Part shown: piece after piece, positions 26,489 to 39,931 of the stretch
Numbering within the stretch: the stretch's first letter is position 1
Layout: each line of letters begins with the position of its first letter
DNA from: Tannerellaceae bacterium
GTDB taxonomy: Bacteria > Bacteroidota > Bacteroidia > Bacteroidales > Tannerellaceae
Length of the DNA: 40,119 bases
NCBI GenBank assembly: GCA_021201565.1
Contig: JAJQES010000108.1
Span: 1-40,119, forward strand
Reading direction: 5' to 3'
Program-made: the position numbers and the translations under genes
The notes under the pieces: model-generated
The model's input: only the letters and a program-made list of their open reading frames with translations
Databases searched by the model: none
What the model was told of the DNA's origin: nothing

Positions 26489-26756
26489 AAGACGCCCTAC
26501 CTTAGCCCAGTACGCAGTGCAGGATTGTATGTTTAGGATTCTCTCTAAGTCCCGTAGGGACGCCCTATCTTAGCCCAGGACAACGTCCTGGGTAATAGAG
26601 AGTAAGAAGAAAAGGAGTGCTGTAAGCACGGCATAATAAAATAGCGACAGATGAATGGATCGTAATTTATGCCGTCCTTACAGGACTCAATACAAATAAC
26701 GGGTTCAAACCCAGGGCGTTGCCCTGGGCTGGGATAGGGCGTCCCTCCAGGACTTA
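26489..26756. repeat. Composite palindromic repeat element (nested GC-rich hairpins with outer inverted arms)
   Basis: Outer arms 26546-26579 (taagtcccgtagggacgccctatcttagcccagg) vs 26723-26755 (cctgggctgggatagggcgtccctccaggactta); inner hairpins cccaggacaacgtcctggg and cccagggcgttgccctggg; partial extra copy at 26489-26523. Confidence 0.8.
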
Positions 26757-32439: not shown

Positions 32440-32512
32440 GCCGACATAGCTCAGTTGGTAGAGCAACTCATTCGTAATGAGTAGGTCGCCGGTTCGAGTC
32501 CGGCTTTCGGCT
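32440..32512 (+). tRNA. tRNA-Thr (anticodon CGT)
   Basis: Cloverleaf: acceptor GCCGACA/TTTCGGC (one C-T mismatch), D arm GCTC/GAGC, anticodon arm ACTCA-TTCGTAA-TGAGT, T arm GCCGG-TTCGAGT-CCGGC. Confidence 0.92.
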
Positions 32513-33676: not shown

Positions 33677-35245
33677 TCAGTGGGTTTTTAGGCTGGAGGC
33701 GAACGCCATCCGGACAGCTAAAATGTGCCGGCAGGGGTCTTCCTGAAGGGGGATCTTTCGATGATGCCCGCAGTCACATTGGCCATTTTCCAGCTCCAGG
33801 TCTTTACTAAGGACAGCGAGCGCGCTATATATCCATTTCCCATCCTTCATATCTCCCTCTATGTGTATATTTTCTTTGTTTTTAGTATAGGATAACTCTA
33901 TTCCGGTATGGGATAGTTTACAGGCTTCCTTTTCTTCGGTACTGCTGAACCGGAGAGATTCCGGAGCCGGAAATCCCGGAATAAGTTCCCGGAAGGAGTA
34001 ATTTTCTGTAAGGGGATTGTAAATAACTCTTCCTTTTTGCAGGAGGGCTATCCCGGTGAGTTGTGCTTCGTCTTTTTCAATTCTTAAGCGGCTCATTGTG
34101 TCAGGAAGGGAAATCTTTCTTTTCTCTTTCAGGAGATTCAGAAAGTGTTCCTCTGTTTTCCGGGAAACAAGTGCGGGAGGGGCTAACAAGTCTGTTTGTC
34201 CGGCATGCCGCCAGTCATTGGCTTCCCATCCGTTGAATCCTGTGGTAAAAGTGATGGCGCCCATCTCTGCGATCAGGAAAAAGGGATACCCGGTGCCGTG
34301 GAGGAGGAGTTTACAGGAGTCAACCAGGGGCAGGATGCGGGTGAGCAGCTGGAGTTTTTCTCCTCCCCATACACGGATTCTTTTTTGCTGTTTGCCTGTG
34401 TACAGGGTCTGGTGGCAAACAATCTCTTTTCCGGAGTCTTCTATTTGGATCCGGACGGGTTGCCCGGGGGTGAGATAGAAGGACAACCCGTGAGCCCCGG
34501 TTTTCCGGGTAGGGATGGTGAAGGCGTGACAGATATTCAGAATATCTACCGGGCGGAGTTCAAGTAGGTCGGCCGGCATTCCGGAGGTGGCATTCATCTG
34601 GAGGAAACCGCGGAACCAGGCGGAGGTGAATGAAGGGGAGGGTTCCTGCCGGACCTGTTCCTCTTCCGGCCCGGCTGCTATTTGCAGCATTGTCTCTTTA
34701 TAGCTGCGTATTCCCCGGATCATTTCATAGAAATCAGATGCATAGTCCGGCACAGTCGTTCCGCTTTGTATATCCCGGATTGCATGAAAGGCTTCTTTCC
34801 CGCAGGTAAGTCTCCCGTAGAGGGAGGCCTCGGCGTTGAAATATTCTATGTGTATCTCTTCCGGGTGAACGGTCAGCAGGAACCGGGGGGGAGCCATACG
34901 TGGCGCCTGCTGTTGGAGATAAGCGGTGTATTTTTTCTTTGCCTGGTCAAAAGGGGCGAGGATCTGCTTTTTTTGTTCCCGGATGTATTCCAGTTCTTTC
35001 CGGATGATTTCCAGTTGCTTGTTATCCGGTTGGGCGGCCTGCAAGCTGGTGGCCAGTCTGAGTGGTTTATCGGTGGAGATGGAAGACGCAGATAGGGAGG
35101 CTGGATTCTTTTCTTTTTCCCCGGAAAGGCTGAAATCATACAGCGTGGAGAGGGCTTCCCGGAATGCGGTGCTTTCTTTCAGGATGCCCTGAAACGAGAC
35201 GGGGGTGCCGGATGGACCGGGGAAGAAGCGGAGGAGTGTTTTCAT
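33677..35245 (-). CDS. SWIM zinc-finger protein, retron-associated (WH-SWIM-like accessory gene)
   Basis: C-terminal CDCGHHRKIPLQEDPCRH (CxCxnCxH SWIM signature); 4 bp downstream of the ARM/HEAT gene on the same strand. Confidence 0.82.
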   Translation of the reverse strand: MKTLLRFFPGPSGTPVSFQGILKESTAFREALSTLYDFSLSGEKEKNPASLSASSISTDKPLRLATSLQAAQPDNKQLEIIRKELEYIREQKKQILAPFDQAKKKYTAYLQQQAPRMAPPRFLLTVHPEEIHIEYFNAEASLYGRLTCGKEAFHAIRDIQSGTTVPDYASDFYEMIRGIRSYKETMLQIAAGPEEEQVRQEPSPSFTSAWFRGFLQMNATSGMPADLLELRPVDILNICHAFTIPTRKTGAHGLSFYLTPGQPVRIQIEDSGKEIVCHQTLYTGKQQKRIRVWGGEKLQLLTRILPLVDSCKLLLHGTGYPFFLIAEMGAITFTTGFNGWEANDWRHAGQTDLLAPPALVSRKTEEHFLNLLKEKRKISLPDTMSRLRIEKDEAQLTGIALLQKGRVIYNPLTENYSFRELIPGFPAPESLRFSSTEEKEACKLSHTGIELSYTKNKENIHIEGDMKDGKWIYSALAVLSKDLELENGQCDCGHHRKIPLQEDPCRHILAVRMAFASSLKTH

Positions 35246-35249
35246 CAGA

Positions 35250-38159
35250 TTATTCTTTAATGATCAGTTGCATCTCTAAACCGGGATACCGGTTTTTTAT
35301 CTCTGTCAGTGCATAGATTGCTTTTTCTTTTTCCCGGATACCGGGCAGCAGGCTTACTTCTTCTAATAAGGGAATCAGGAGCCAGGCTATTTCCGGATCC
35401 CTGCAAGATTCGGTATGCAAAAAGGTTATGACCTGTTTTTTGGCTGTTCCCACTTTCTGCCTGCTGAACAGGATGGACCGGAAAAAAGGACGGAGGGCGG
35501 CCAGGATCTCTTTCTTCCCGGATGCCTGTGGGAGTAGTTGTTCCAACAGGGATATCCGCACGTGGAGATCGGGATGTTCGCTTTGCATCAGCAGAAAACC
35601 GGCCATCTGCGCGGGAGGCAGGTAGGCCCGGACAAGTTCCTGTCCGAACTCCCGGACATCCGTATAGGAAGATTCAAGCAGGTAGACCAGCATACCGGGT
35701 TCCCAGTCCCCGGCACTGAAATGGTTGGTGAAGAACTGGCGGGCGTACCGGCGTGTCTCTTCCTGTGAGGAAGTGGCCAGCGCGATGGCTTTTTTCTTCT
35801 CTCTACGGATATGGTTGCTGTTTTGCCGGAAGTAGTTCCGGCACCATTCCCGTGCTTCCGGAAGTGGATGTTCGCCGAATGAAATGACCTGTTCAAGCGT
35901 AAATTCCTGGTCCCGTGCAGTCAGGGCCTGGTTCCAGTAGGACTGTAACTCCCGGGTGAAGAACTCCCGCAGGATAGTATGCGCGCCTTCAAAGGCTTCC
36001 GGTTGGACCAGCCGGGTAAGAATGTTCCGGGTAAGGGCATTCCGCAGATAGGGATGGTAGCTGGCCAGTCTGCGGAGACGCTCGAGGATTTGTATAACGA
36101 CCTCTTTATTGGGATTGTCTGTTTGTTGTAACAGGAAGTCACTCTGGGCCGCCAGTACACTATCGGGGTAACGGCTTACCAGGCACAGTCCGTTGTCCCG
36201 GACAGCGGGTAAGGGACTCCGGAGTAATTTCCCGGCCAGGGCGGGCGGAACCTCGGAAGCACTGACGCGGGCAGATTTTTCAGCCGTGATCTCACTAGCG
36301 AGTAACTGGTTTGTATCCAGAGGAGAGGACAGAAGAGAGTTGATGAGTTTCCACTCCAGTTTATACAAATAAGATCCGCTGAGGTCTTTGATCCGTTTTG
36401 TGGCGGTCCGGACCGCTTCCCGGCTTTCACTGGTATCCGGTAAAGTCGTTAACCGGGTGAGGACAGCCTCCGGCAGGGTTTGCTGTTGTTCATCAGACAG
36501 CCGGAGATGGCGTAGCAAACGGTCTATCCAATCTGTCGTGTTTGTAGCAGGATATACAATTAACCAGGCCAGAAAAGAAGTATCTGCCGACAAAACGGAA
36601 AAGTGTTGTATGATTTGTTCCCGGGCCCATGTCCGGATCTCTAGGGAGTCCCGTTCCAGTAAACCACAAAGAAATCCCGGTTCAGGGGGAAGTGTCCCGG
36701 CCTGTGTTTTTAGCAAATCCAGACCGAAGGTACGGGGTATTTCGTAGGAACTGTTTAACAGCAGGATGATTTCTTCCCGGCTGACCTGCGTGCAGATCTC
36801 ATCATAGCGGCTGTGTTTCTTCAACCGGTTGTAGGCAAACTGATGGACCAGGTCCATCTTTGCCTGTTTCAATAACTCTATATAGGTTTCCGGCACTGCT
36901 TCCCAATGTTCCGGGAAGAGTTCAAACCATTTCTCTTTTTCCTGCTCTTCTTTTCTTTCCTCTACAGGTGCAGGTCCGGCCTGTGGCTTTTTTTTCTTTT
37001 TGTAAACACCGTACAAATATTTTACCAGGCCTCCCAGGAGAGAGTCCGGCTGGGTCTCTGCCGCGTATTTCTGTGGTTCATCGCCGGTTTGATATAATAC
37101 CATTTCATTGTAGTAATTGAATTTGGTATATATTTTCCTGGTAGGGGGATGGTAGGTGTATAGGAACGTGTCGGTTAGCCGGCGTTCCGGATCTTTTCCG
37201 AACAGGATGGTGGAGAGCAGAAAGGATTTATAACATTCCGGCTGGTGATTTACCAGAAAATATTTTTTCCGGGTGAGGGGATCCCGCTGTGCATACTGGG
37301 AGAGAGGAACGTCCTGCTCCGGGATATAGTCTTTGTTGTCGTATTGAAGAAGGAAAGCGAAGGCTATTTCCAGATAGGCCCGGGCATCGCCGGACTCTCC
37401 GGCTCGCTTTAATAGTTTCCAGGCCTCCTGCTGGAAATACCGTTTTGTGCGGGGGCTAAAAGCACGTACTTCGTAATAAGAGGATCTCCGGTTGAACGCG
37501 GGTTCTTTTTCGATCAGCCGTGCCAGGCAGGATAAGGTCGGATAATCTTTCCGGATTTCCGCCAGCCGATACATGGCACGGATCTGTTTGAAGAACGGGA
37601 CTTCGCACTCCCATCCCCGGAGAACTGCCTGTAAGGGTGAAAGCAGCCAAGGATGAGGCTTTGCTAACAGATATAGTTCGGTAAAGGAGCCTATATTTGC
37701 ATTGTTTGTATAGAATTCCAGGAGTTGGAGGAAGGTGGTTTCCTCTTTGTCCTGGATGGCCTGCCGGAGGATGGAGGGGAGCCGGGCGAGCAATGTGCCG
37801 GTAAAAACCTCCAGGGAGTTGTCTGTCAGAATGGTTAACAGGCCTTCTGTGGCCAGGTGGCGGATGTGTTCTTTTGGGGTGGTATCTGTAGCATATTTCC
37901 TGAACAGGGACTCTGCTTCCCTGGCTTTTAGTGTGACCAGTGCATGGAGGGCGGCATAGAGTTGTATTTCCTCTCCTTTTTCTGCTAACATACAGATCCA
38001 TGGAATGGCGGAAAGGGAATGAATTTCTGCTGCTTTGGTAATCACCCGGTGGGTACTCCAGGAGGTCCGGAAACTATTTTTCCCTTCTGCCGCATCCTGT
38101 AGGCGGCGCAGAATGGCTGCCTCCCGGAGAGCTGTTTTGTTGTGAATATGGTTGGGCAT
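35250..38159 (-). CDS. Large ARM/HEAT-like alpha-helical repeat protein, retron-associated
   Basis: 969 aa rich in repeated helical pairs (e.g. LLRSPLPAVRDNGLCLVSRYPDSVL, LLESSYTDVREFGQELVRAYL, MQSEHPDLHVRISLLEQLLPQ); starts 12 bp after the RT stop. Confidence 0.8.
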   Translation of the reverse strand: MPNHIHNKTALREAAILRRLQDAAEGKNSFRTSWSTHRVITKAAEIHSLSAIPWICMLAEKGEEIQLYAALHALVTLKAREAESLFRKYATDTTPKEHIRHLATEGLLTILTDNSLEVFTGTLLARLPSILRQAIQDKEETTFLQLLEFYTNNANIGSFTELYLLAKPHPWLLSPLQAVLRGWECEVPFFKQIRAMYRLAEIRKDYPTLSCLARLIEKEPAFNRRSSYYEVRAFSPRTKRYFQQEAWKLLKRAGESGDARAYLEIAFAFLLQYDNKDYIPEQDVPLSQYAQRDPLTRKKYFLVNHQPECYKSFLLSTILFGKDPERRLTDTFLYTYHPPTRKIYTKFNYYNEMVLYQTGDEPQKYAAETQPDSLLGGLVKYLYGVYKKKKKPQAGPAPVEERKEEQEKEKWFELFPEHWEAVPETYIELLKQAKMDLVHQFAYNRLKKHSRYDEICTQVSREEIILLLNSSYEIPRTFGLDLLKTQAGTLPPEPGFLCGLLERDSLEIRTWAREQIIQHFSVLSADTSFLAWLIVYPATNTTDWIDRLLRHLRLSDEQQQTLPEAVLTRLTTLPDTSESREAVRTATKRIKDLSGSYLYKLEWKLINSLLSSPLDTNQLLASEITAEKSARVSASEVPPALAGKLLRSPLPAVRDNGLCLVSRYPDSVLAAQSDFLLQQTDNPNKEVVIQILERLRRLASYHPYLRNALTRNILTRLVQPEAFEGAHTILREFFTRELQSYWNQALTARDQEFTLEQVISFGEHPLPEAREWCRNYFRQNSNHIRREKKKAIALATSSQEETRRYARQFFTNHFSAGDWEPGMLVYLLESSYTDVREFGQELVRAYLPPAQMAGFLLMQSEHPDLHVRISLLEQLLPQASGKKEILAALRPFFRSILFSRQKVGTAKKQVITFLHTESCRDPEIAWLLIPLLEEVSLLPGIREKEKAIYALTEIKNRYPGLEMQLIIKE

Positions 38160-38171
38160 GTCAGTAGATGT

Positions 38172-39635
38172 TTAAGTAGTAAGAGGAAGCCCCCACCAGT
38201 CTACCTCAAAAGAAGAGGTCGAAGGGGAATCCGGTTCTTTTTTTTCACCGGACTTGTCTATCCTGGTTTCCGGACTGGAGGCCGGTCCGGCCGGATAGCC
38301 ATGTTTGAATACAATTTTCATCAGTTGTTCTTCAAACTTCTTTGCTTTGTGGGGGTGAACCATCCGGATGAAGTTGATATATCCTTCTATGCTGTGGGGC
38401 AGATAGCCTGAGGGATGACCCCATTGCTGTTGCTGCCAGCCGTTTACCTCTATATGATGTAAAAGAGCTCTGAACCGGCGGAGTTGTTGCCGGTCTATAT
38501 TGGGGCGCTGGTTTACGACAATTCCGGTTACCCGTTGTTGCCGGTTCTTACGCATGATCTGTGTTTTCTCCGGATGGACGGTGAATCTTTCTTCCCGGAT
38601 GACTTTTCTTATGAAATAGAGGAGTTTGGTGATATTTCTTTCCTGCTCTTTATAGGCGGAGAAGGTCAGGTCATCTGCATACCGGGTGTAGGTGAAATTG
38701 TATTTTTTAGCTACGCCTTCAAGCCGTTTGTCCAGCGTATAAGCGATCAGGTTACTGATAGCGGGACTGGCGGGTGATCCTTGCGGGAGGGAACGCCTGT
38801 TTGTTTGTACATACCAGGTTTGCCCGTTTAGCTCTACCTGCCTGGTTTGGGCTTCTGTACAGATGAGCGCCAACAGAATACTTAGTTGCTCTGAATAGCC
38901 GAACTTCCGGAACAATCCTTTCACACGCTTGTAGGAGATGGAAGGAAAAAAGTCTTTCAGGTCCAGATTAACCACAATGTCTTTTCCCAGGTGAGGGGAG
39001 GCGTTGGTCAGGATAGAACGTTCTTTGGCGAACCCATGCACCTGGTCACAGACCGGTAGCCGGTTGAGGATGTTTTCTGTTACCCAATATTGTAGCCTCT
39101 TTAGTTTTTGTTTGGGGGCGGAGATGGTGCGCATTTCCCCTGATTTCTTCGGGAATTTGAAGGTATAATAATGGGTGGAGGAGGTGACTTTCCTGTTATA
39201 CAAAAGGTATTGCAGGGTAGGTAAGTCACAGTTCATTTGTTCTCCCAGTTCCCGGAAAGAAGTACAAACAGGCAGGTTGTATTTTTGTAACAGGGCGGTG
39301 TTGGTTTCTGTTTCCCTCAGCCCTGTTGATACTTCTTCCCCCAGATAGGGGATCGTTTCCGGCCGGGCCAGTTTCCGGCGCGCGGCCTTTTCCAGTTTCT
39401 TTTGCCTGGCCCGTTGCCGGAGCAGCATCTCCCCTTTTTCTTTGTTTTCCTTTCCGGTCTTTGCCAGCAGCTCATTCAGTTCACGGGCTAAATCATCTTC
39501 CCGCTGGTTTAACTCTTCCGGAAAAGCGGGAAGGGGCTGCTCCCAGAACCCGAGACGTTTCATCTCTTCCAGTGGTTGCTTTTCGACTGGAACAGATCTG
39601 CCAGGAGTATTTTCTCGTGTCGCTCTTTCACCCAT
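38172..39635 (-). CDS. Retron-type reverse transcriptase (487 aa, with about 110-aa charged N-terminal extension)
   Basis: NASPH (retron NAxxH motif, 38991-39005), VVNLDLKDFFPSI, LPQGSPASPAISNLI, YADD (38670-38681), RVTGIVVN (VTG motif, 38523-38531). Confidence 0.95.
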   Translation of the reverse strand: MGERATRENTPGRSVPVEKQPLEEMKRLGFWEQPLPAFPEELNQREDDLARELNELLAKTGKENKEKGEMLLRQRARQKKLEKAARRKLARPETIPYLGEEVSTGLRETETNTALLQKYNLPVCTSFRELGEQMNCDLPTLQYLLYNRKVTSSTHYYTFKFPKKSGEMRTISAPKQKLKRLQYWVTENILNRLPVCDQVHGFAKERSILTNASPHLGKDIVVNLDLKDFFPSISYKRVKGLFRKFGYSEQLSILLALICTEAQTRQVELNGQTWYVQTNRRSLPQGSPASPAISNLIAYTLDKRLEGVAKKYNFTYTRYADDLTFSAYKEQERNITKLLYFIRKVIREERFTVHPEKTQIMRKNRQQRVTGIVVNQRPNIDRQQLRRFRALLHHIEVNGWQQQQWGHPSGYLPHSIEGYINFIRMVHPHKAKKFEEQLMKIVFKHGYPAGPASSPETRIDKSGEKKEPDSPSTSSFEVDWWGLPLTT

Positions 39636-39654: not shown

Positions 39655-39696
39655 TTAAAAAAGAAAAAGCCCCGCATCTTTAACAGGCAGGGCTTT
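39655..39696 (-). terminator. Intrinsic terminator at the 3' end of the retron ncRNA, upstream of the RT start
   Basis: Minus strand AAAGCCCtgcctgttaaagatgcGGGGCTTT followed by TTCTTTTTT; abuts a2. Confidence 0.75.
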
Positions 39697-39917
39697 GGTT
39701 TGGATCCTTCGTATTTTCCCGGGACTATCCCAATCAACTCCGGAGCACAATGGTTTCTTTAGAACGTTTGATCTCGCGGAGTAGGAACTGTATAACGTGC
39801 TAAAGAAACCATTGTGCTCCGGTCTGGTGATTGCGGGCAGGGCAGGTGATGAACTCTTAGCACAACGATGACGAAACATCATCTTTCTCTGAAAAAGAAG
39901 CAAGGTATTTCCAAACC
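39697..39917 (-). ncRNA. Predicted retron msr-msd ncRNA (a1 to a2)
   Basis: Minus strand a1 GGTTTGGA(aata)CCTT (39917-39902) complements a2 AAGG(a)TCCAAACC (39709-39697); two msr stem-loops (39882-39898, 39867-39883); long msd hairpin 39740-39822; immediately upstream of a retron RT on the same strand. Confidence 0.85.
39740..39822 (-). repeat. msd long hairpin: 29-nt arms (28/29 complementary), 25-nt loop
   Basis: + strand left arm 39740-39768 ccggagcacaatggtttctttagaacgtt; right arm 39794-39822 aacgtgctaaagaaaccattgtgctccgg. Confidence 0.95.
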
Positions 39918-39923
39918 TCCCGG

Positions 39924-39931
39924 CAAAGTTA
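39924..39931 (-). promoter_or_regulatory. Candidate -7 box TAACTTTG driving the retron ncRNA
   Basis: Reverse complement of caaagtta; matches TAnnTTTG and would start the transcript at about the first bases of a1. Confidence 0.65.

Follow-up and report, generated by a model that had tools for sequence, protein, structure and literature searches.

The ncRNA of Retron Eco1 (Ec86) is organized around a1/a2 ends, a G right after a1, msr hairpins, a long msd hairpin, and a cDNA start just before a2. In the general retron scheme, the cDNA is primed through a 2'-5' linkage from the G beside a1 (PMC8989520), and the retron restrains a toxic partner until a phage factor acting on the complex frees it, as exemplified by a phage adenine methyltransferase and GATC in the ncRNA (PMC12548924). 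Type XIII is a class from the Mestre et al. 2020 classification, as cited in PMC9252829, and PADLOC is reported to include covariance models for the msr-msd. No experimental work on type XIII retrons, and no trigger or effector chemistry for the type, was found in the open-licence literature searched.

The locus described here lies in the window, the whole stretch of 40,119 nucleotides of a Tannerellaceae contig that was analyzed, and is an added member of this already known, little-studied type. Its RNA very probably serves as msr-msd template in a type XIII retron, a system of an RT, a HEAT/WGR-type protein, and a SWIM protein, an assignment made because the RT, HEAT, and SWIM genes match PADLOC RT_XIII, WGR/HEAT_XIII, and SWIM_XIII. 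The type XIII families (RT_XIII, WGR_XIII, HEAT-ARM_XIII, and SWIM_XIII) are the best ones for all three window proteins, and the ncRNA sits upstream of the RT as in type XIII retrons, but the window HEAT protein is without the WGR domain and, unlike type XIII loci with a HEAT-SWIM-RT order, the window is RT-first. In comparison to Eco1/Ec86, the window RNA has the same a1/a2, post-a1 G, msr hairpins, long msd hairpin, and (predicted) cDNA start, whereas its msd stem is longer, near-perfect, and hypervariable in sequence, its msd loop holds a small hairpin, and the effectors differ. The methylation-triggered retrons Asa1 and Squ1 (PMC12548924) are a model for a phage protein that reads a sequence motif in the msd, though theirs is a GATC motif combined with other effectors.

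Structure and covariation of the window ncRNA

The RT scan of genome contigs yielded zero relatives with a single-sequence query and 493 with an alignment query, and the best 80 of 493 were kept. Most of the 80 fetched loci have an RT, a HEAT protein, and a SWIM protein with the ncRNA before the RT, in two gene orders. Covariance model R1, built from 24 homologs with the window left out, matched the window RNA at 39694..39917 on the minus strand (122.2 bits, E=1.6e-25), and across the 40 kb it found nothing significant besides this RNA. No family in Rfam 15 matched 39694-39917 at the gathering score. A well-supported covarying structure is now available for a type XIII retron RNA that is absent from Rfam 15, along with a predicted branch site and cDNA start. 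The sequence, the structure, its covariation, all three gene families, and the conservation of the unit are established here.

A sequence-only reading of this DNA had proposed a canonical retron architecture, which is supported by the present analysis and lies next to genes for a retron RT and for type XIII effectors. On the minus strand, the RNA begins with a1 (39902..39917; GGTTTGGA-aata-CCTT, also given as GGTTTGGAaataCCTT), followed by G39901-C, two stem-loops, and a single-stranded stretch, and its 3' part runs ...TAC|GAAGG and then a2 AAGGaTCCAAACC (39697..39709; AAGG-a-TCCAAACC). Both a1 and a2 lie exactly where that reading had placed them (39917-39902 and 39709-39697), as do msr stem-loop 1 (39882..39898) and stem-loop 2 (39867..39883; GATGATG-TTT-CGTCATC). 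Because the two stem-loops share two bases and the lower half of stem-loop 2 covaries, stem-loop 2 is best read as full-length. The 29-bp msd hairpin was also correctly described, with near-perfect arms at 39822-39794 (5' arm, 39794..39822, covarying helices 5 and 6) and 39768-39740 (3' arm, 39740..39768) that are paired at 28/29 positions around a 25-nt loop (39769..39793), itself containing a small CTCC-GC-GAG hairpin (covarying helix 7). The outer CAATCA/TGATTG stem does exist, but one side had been set one base off, and the true pairing is 39833-39828 with 39736-39731 (5' side 39828..39833, 3' side 39731..39736).

The window RNA has an MFE of -85.6 kcal/mol (z = -5.95), and 0/200 shuffles were as low. 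The msd hairpin is the window's longest short-loop inverted repeat, with a 23-bp exact run, and in five shuffled windows no such repeat reached 14 bp. An 18-bp exact inverted repeat at positions 1446 and 1525 ranks second in length within the window.

Compensatory changes in a1/a2 and in the hairpin among homologs were the test that the sequence-only reading had set for its fold, and the structure passed it. In a 25-row alignment compared with shuffles and slid controls, the structure was paired in 87.7% of cells (73.2% in shuffles and 36-47% in slid controls), double changes occurred in 35/50 pairs, double-changed cells numbered 202 against 72.2 in shuffles, and the covariation score was 0.414 against 0.158 in shuffles, with every slid control far lower. 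Most helices are backed by compensatory changes. Stem-loop 2 was paired in 97.5% of cells, with 4/8 pairs double-changed, and the outer msd stem (helix 4) in 99.2%, with an AU to UA swap in 11/25 rows. The length of stem-loop 1 varies, so its support comes from the recurrence of equivalent hairpins in homologs and not from pair counts.

The outer a1/a2 (helix 1) was paired in only 50% of cells in the register of the window, as the a1/a2 register shifts among homologs. The outer sequence of a1/a2 differs by locus and is mostly complementary within a locus (mean -7.9 kcal/mol with its own partner and -4.0 with the partners of others), and the duplex in the window reaches -15.3 kcal/mol, compared with a mean of -8.6 when its a1 is combined with the a2 of other loci (0/26 as strong). 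The CCTT/AAGG core is invariant among aligned homologs, and the G just 3' of a1 (alignment G17) is invariant in 24/24 and is found in the window as well. From the position of the branch site in known retrons, G39901 (minus strand), within a CCTTGC that is invariant among 24 aligned homologs, is the predicted branching guanosine, and the earlier choice of this candidate is well placed. The invariant C|GAAGG immediately before a2 suggests that the cDNA starts at plus-strand G39711, and not at 39705-39710 as had been proposed, and its 3' end is placed approximately at 39840-39866. The expected cDNA, judged from this junction and the msr boundary, would therefore occupy approximately 39711..39855 on the plus strand.

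The consensus of the Bacteroidota -7 type promoter is TAnnTTTG. A promoter-like element of this type, TAACTTTG (39924..39931, minus strand), ends 6 nt upstream of a1, and TAnnTTTG occurs close to a1 in 24/84 homologous ncRNAs compared with 1.7 expected. Right after a2, a terminator-like hairpin, AAAGCCC...GGGCTTTTT (39661..39696, minus strand; terminator scan), ends in a run of T's. Similar hairpins are present in most RT-first homologs, and many RT-last loci have a longer a1/a2 stem that is itself followed by T's. With the element before a1 and the hairpin and T's after a2, the window ncRNA is probably its own short transcript, from a promoter at a1 to a terminator after a2, with read-through from the ncRNA into the RT. 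The presence of a terminator-like hairpin between a2 and the RT could invite the interpretation that the msd hairpin is an attenuator, a terminator, or an inverted repeat that arose by chance and has nothing to do with the RT. This is hardly credible, as a conserved covarying architecture precedes type XIII RTs across phyla and in both gene orders, and the covariance-model search and the covariation refute it.

Variable msd stems and tandem arrays

The msd arms were less conserved than their flanks in 249/256 related RNA pairs, which are not mutually independent, with conservation across the 256 pairs of 0.67-0.68 in the arms, 0.83 in the msr, and 0.87 in the 3' flank. A 5' arm paired with its own 3' arm at -40.5 kcal/mol and with that of a relative at -19.7 kcal/mol, and the own pairing was stronger in 251/256 pairs. 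Between the window and a locus of the same genus (L010), the msd arms are 52% and 42% identical and the flanks 80% and 85%. Such a stem, apparently rewritten very fast with both arms changing together while the msr and 3' flank are conserved, looks new, though selection on pairing alone, and not on sequence, could produce this pattern in the arms.

Palindromic or GTAC/CTAG motifs as building blocks of msd stems were considered and dropped, because palindromic 6-mers were not enriched, the GTAC and [CT]ACTA signals faded once related stems were removed, and the window stem has no palindromic, GTAC/CTAG, or [CT]ACTA motif. Enrichment had occurred in a loosely filtered set. Palindromic 6-mers in msd stems numbered 17 against 16.9 expected, and counts of GTAC and [CT]ACTA as high as those observed were reached in 37/1000 and 30/1000 shuffles for 24 stems and in 178/1000 and 86/1000 for 14 stems.

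Seven loci contain 2-4 tandem msr-msd units, with differing msd stems and mostly private a1/a2, before one type XIII RT. Two units each are present at L061:5510-6202, L063:6293-6819, L078:6384-6843, and L080:6203-6771, three units and one cut by the contig end at L085:142-903, and four units each at L086:5345-6665 and L087:5102-6367. Whole-genome searches of the array genomes found no further copies elsewhere, the sole exception being a copy in the L085 genome that sits where a contig ends. Between the two copies of L080, identity is 93% across the 5' flank and 100% across the loop but falls to 44% for the inner stem. Own a1/a2 pairing surpassed that with all other copies in 17/19 units (mean -14.6 versus -6.3), indicating that most array units can close and prime alone. 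The weak fourth unit of L086 (6448) and two units of L087 without a good a1/a2 may be decayed. Array loci belong to at least two lineages in the RT tree. No paper on tandem msr-msd arrays was found in the open-licence literature searched, and these arrays look new.

Reverse transcriptase, effector proteins, and a predicted mechanism

The RT, HEAT, and SWIM genes lie on the same strand directly downstream of the ncRNA. The RT (38172..39635, minus strand; 487 aa) has NAxxH, YADD, and VTG motifs and scores 553.5 bits with PADLOC RT_XIII and 308.5 with the next family. In the RT alignment, the motifs NASPH and VTG are recognizable, with N211, A212, H215, V369, T370, and G371 invariant. As the msDNA is known here as a prediction from sequence, the RNA might be imagined to template another kind of DNA synthesis, as in DRT systems, and not a 2'-5' branched msDNA. 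This is very improbable, as the RT scores far higher with retron families than with DRT families, and a1/a2, the conserved post-a1 G, and the msd hairpin are features of retrons, with helices that covary.

The RT-HEAT-SWIM order is shared by the window, L010, L011, L013, and loci from Flavobacterium, Chryseobacterium, Pedobacter, and Bacteroides, and the HEAT-SWIM-RT order by Chitinophaga, Saprospiraceae, Variovorax, Methylobacterium, and others. In the RT tree, a branch with support 99 separates the sampled RT-first set from the rest, and the window falls inside this set next to L010. Six RTs of the type XIII clade (L054, L060, L067, L081, and L094, cyanobacterial, and L037) had no nearby HEAT or SWIM gene and no detectable type XIII ncRNA. 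The RT of L010 (L010:6374-7990) has two frameshifts in its N-terminal half, maybe an error of the low-coverage assembly, and the ncRNA structure of L010 is kept despite the frameshifted RT. Given these frameshifts, the retron system may be undergoing decay within the genus, although the three genes of the window are themselves intact.

The HEAT-repeat effector subunit (35250..38159, minus strand; 969 aa) matches WGR_XIII with 614.6 bits, only from profile position 92, as well as HEAT-ARM_XIII, and its model (pLDDT 84) is a generic solenoid that matches only generic HEAT/ARM proteins. The protein has no Pfam WGR match and begins at residues just past the WGR domain of its relatives, and upstream of the start its reading frame stays open for only some four codons, so the WGR is truly absent from the window gene. 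An N-terminal WGR (PF05406) was present in 6/6 homologs scanned, including L010, with two below the Pfam cut-off; it is a usual feature of the type XIII HEAT protein, not a strict requirement. The absence implies that the window copy could be altered in function. Combined with the frameshifted RT of L010, it also favors a type XIII retron ncRNA within an impaired or repurposed system, in which a WGR-less HEAT protein underperforms and only the RT/ncRNA part works. This is considered unlikely, as the three ORFs of the window are intact and the ncRNA has its full structure and promoter- and terminator-like signals.

The SWIM zinc-finger effector subunit (33677..35245, minus strand; 522 aa) matches SWIM_XIII with 339.5 bits over profile positions 20-504 of 509. 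PCNA and other sliding clamps make up 50/50 of the PDB matches listed for its AlphaFold model (pLDDT 79), and among these the best has E=2.2e-8, target TM-scores are mostly 0.5-0.68, rmsd is mostly 5-9 A, and identity is 7-14%. The model also resembles many viral and phage clamps. A sequence-profile search of the PDB with the SWIM protein found no clamp, so the resemblance is carried entirely by the predicted structure. A sliding-clamp (PCNA/beta-clamp) like fold is a good lead that looks new, and, if true, a clamp-like protein would introduce a new effector concept to retrons.

For the window as a functional type XIII retron, we infer msDNA synthesis, its exact ends, restraint and triggering of the effectors, and their toxicity as follows. 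The RT would bind the RNA at its msr stem-loops and at a1/a2 in their closed form, and cDNA would be primed from the 2'-OH of G39901 opposite C39711. The RT would then copy the msd and halt near the msr, and the product would be a DNA hairpin linked to RNA, its stem about 29 bp long. If studied retrons are a guide, the RT and msDNA would restrain the HEAT and SWIM proteins until the msDNA hairpin is modified, bound, or cut by a phage protein, whereupon they would be freed and cell growth would stop.

More broadly, and tentatively enough that we would hold it somewhat short of an even chance, type XIII retrons may be sensors with an interchangeable msd detector, rewritten on both arms, and fixed RT-binding parts, in which the arrays of some hosts, made of 2-4 different units that each have their own a1/a2, share one RT and effector pair to watch several phage proteins and the clamp-like SWIM protein links the response to replication. 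Should the hypervariable stem and the arrays be functional, it would become directly testable whether phage recognition in a retron falls to the msDNA hairpin.

A tRNA gene (32440-32512, plus strand), about 1.2 kb past the point where the retron operon ends on its 3' side, is a possible island border. Further along, the Acido-Lenti-1 RNA (Rfam RF01687) is matched twice on opposite strands, at 26548-26592 (minus) and 26710-26754 (plus), about 118 bases apart.
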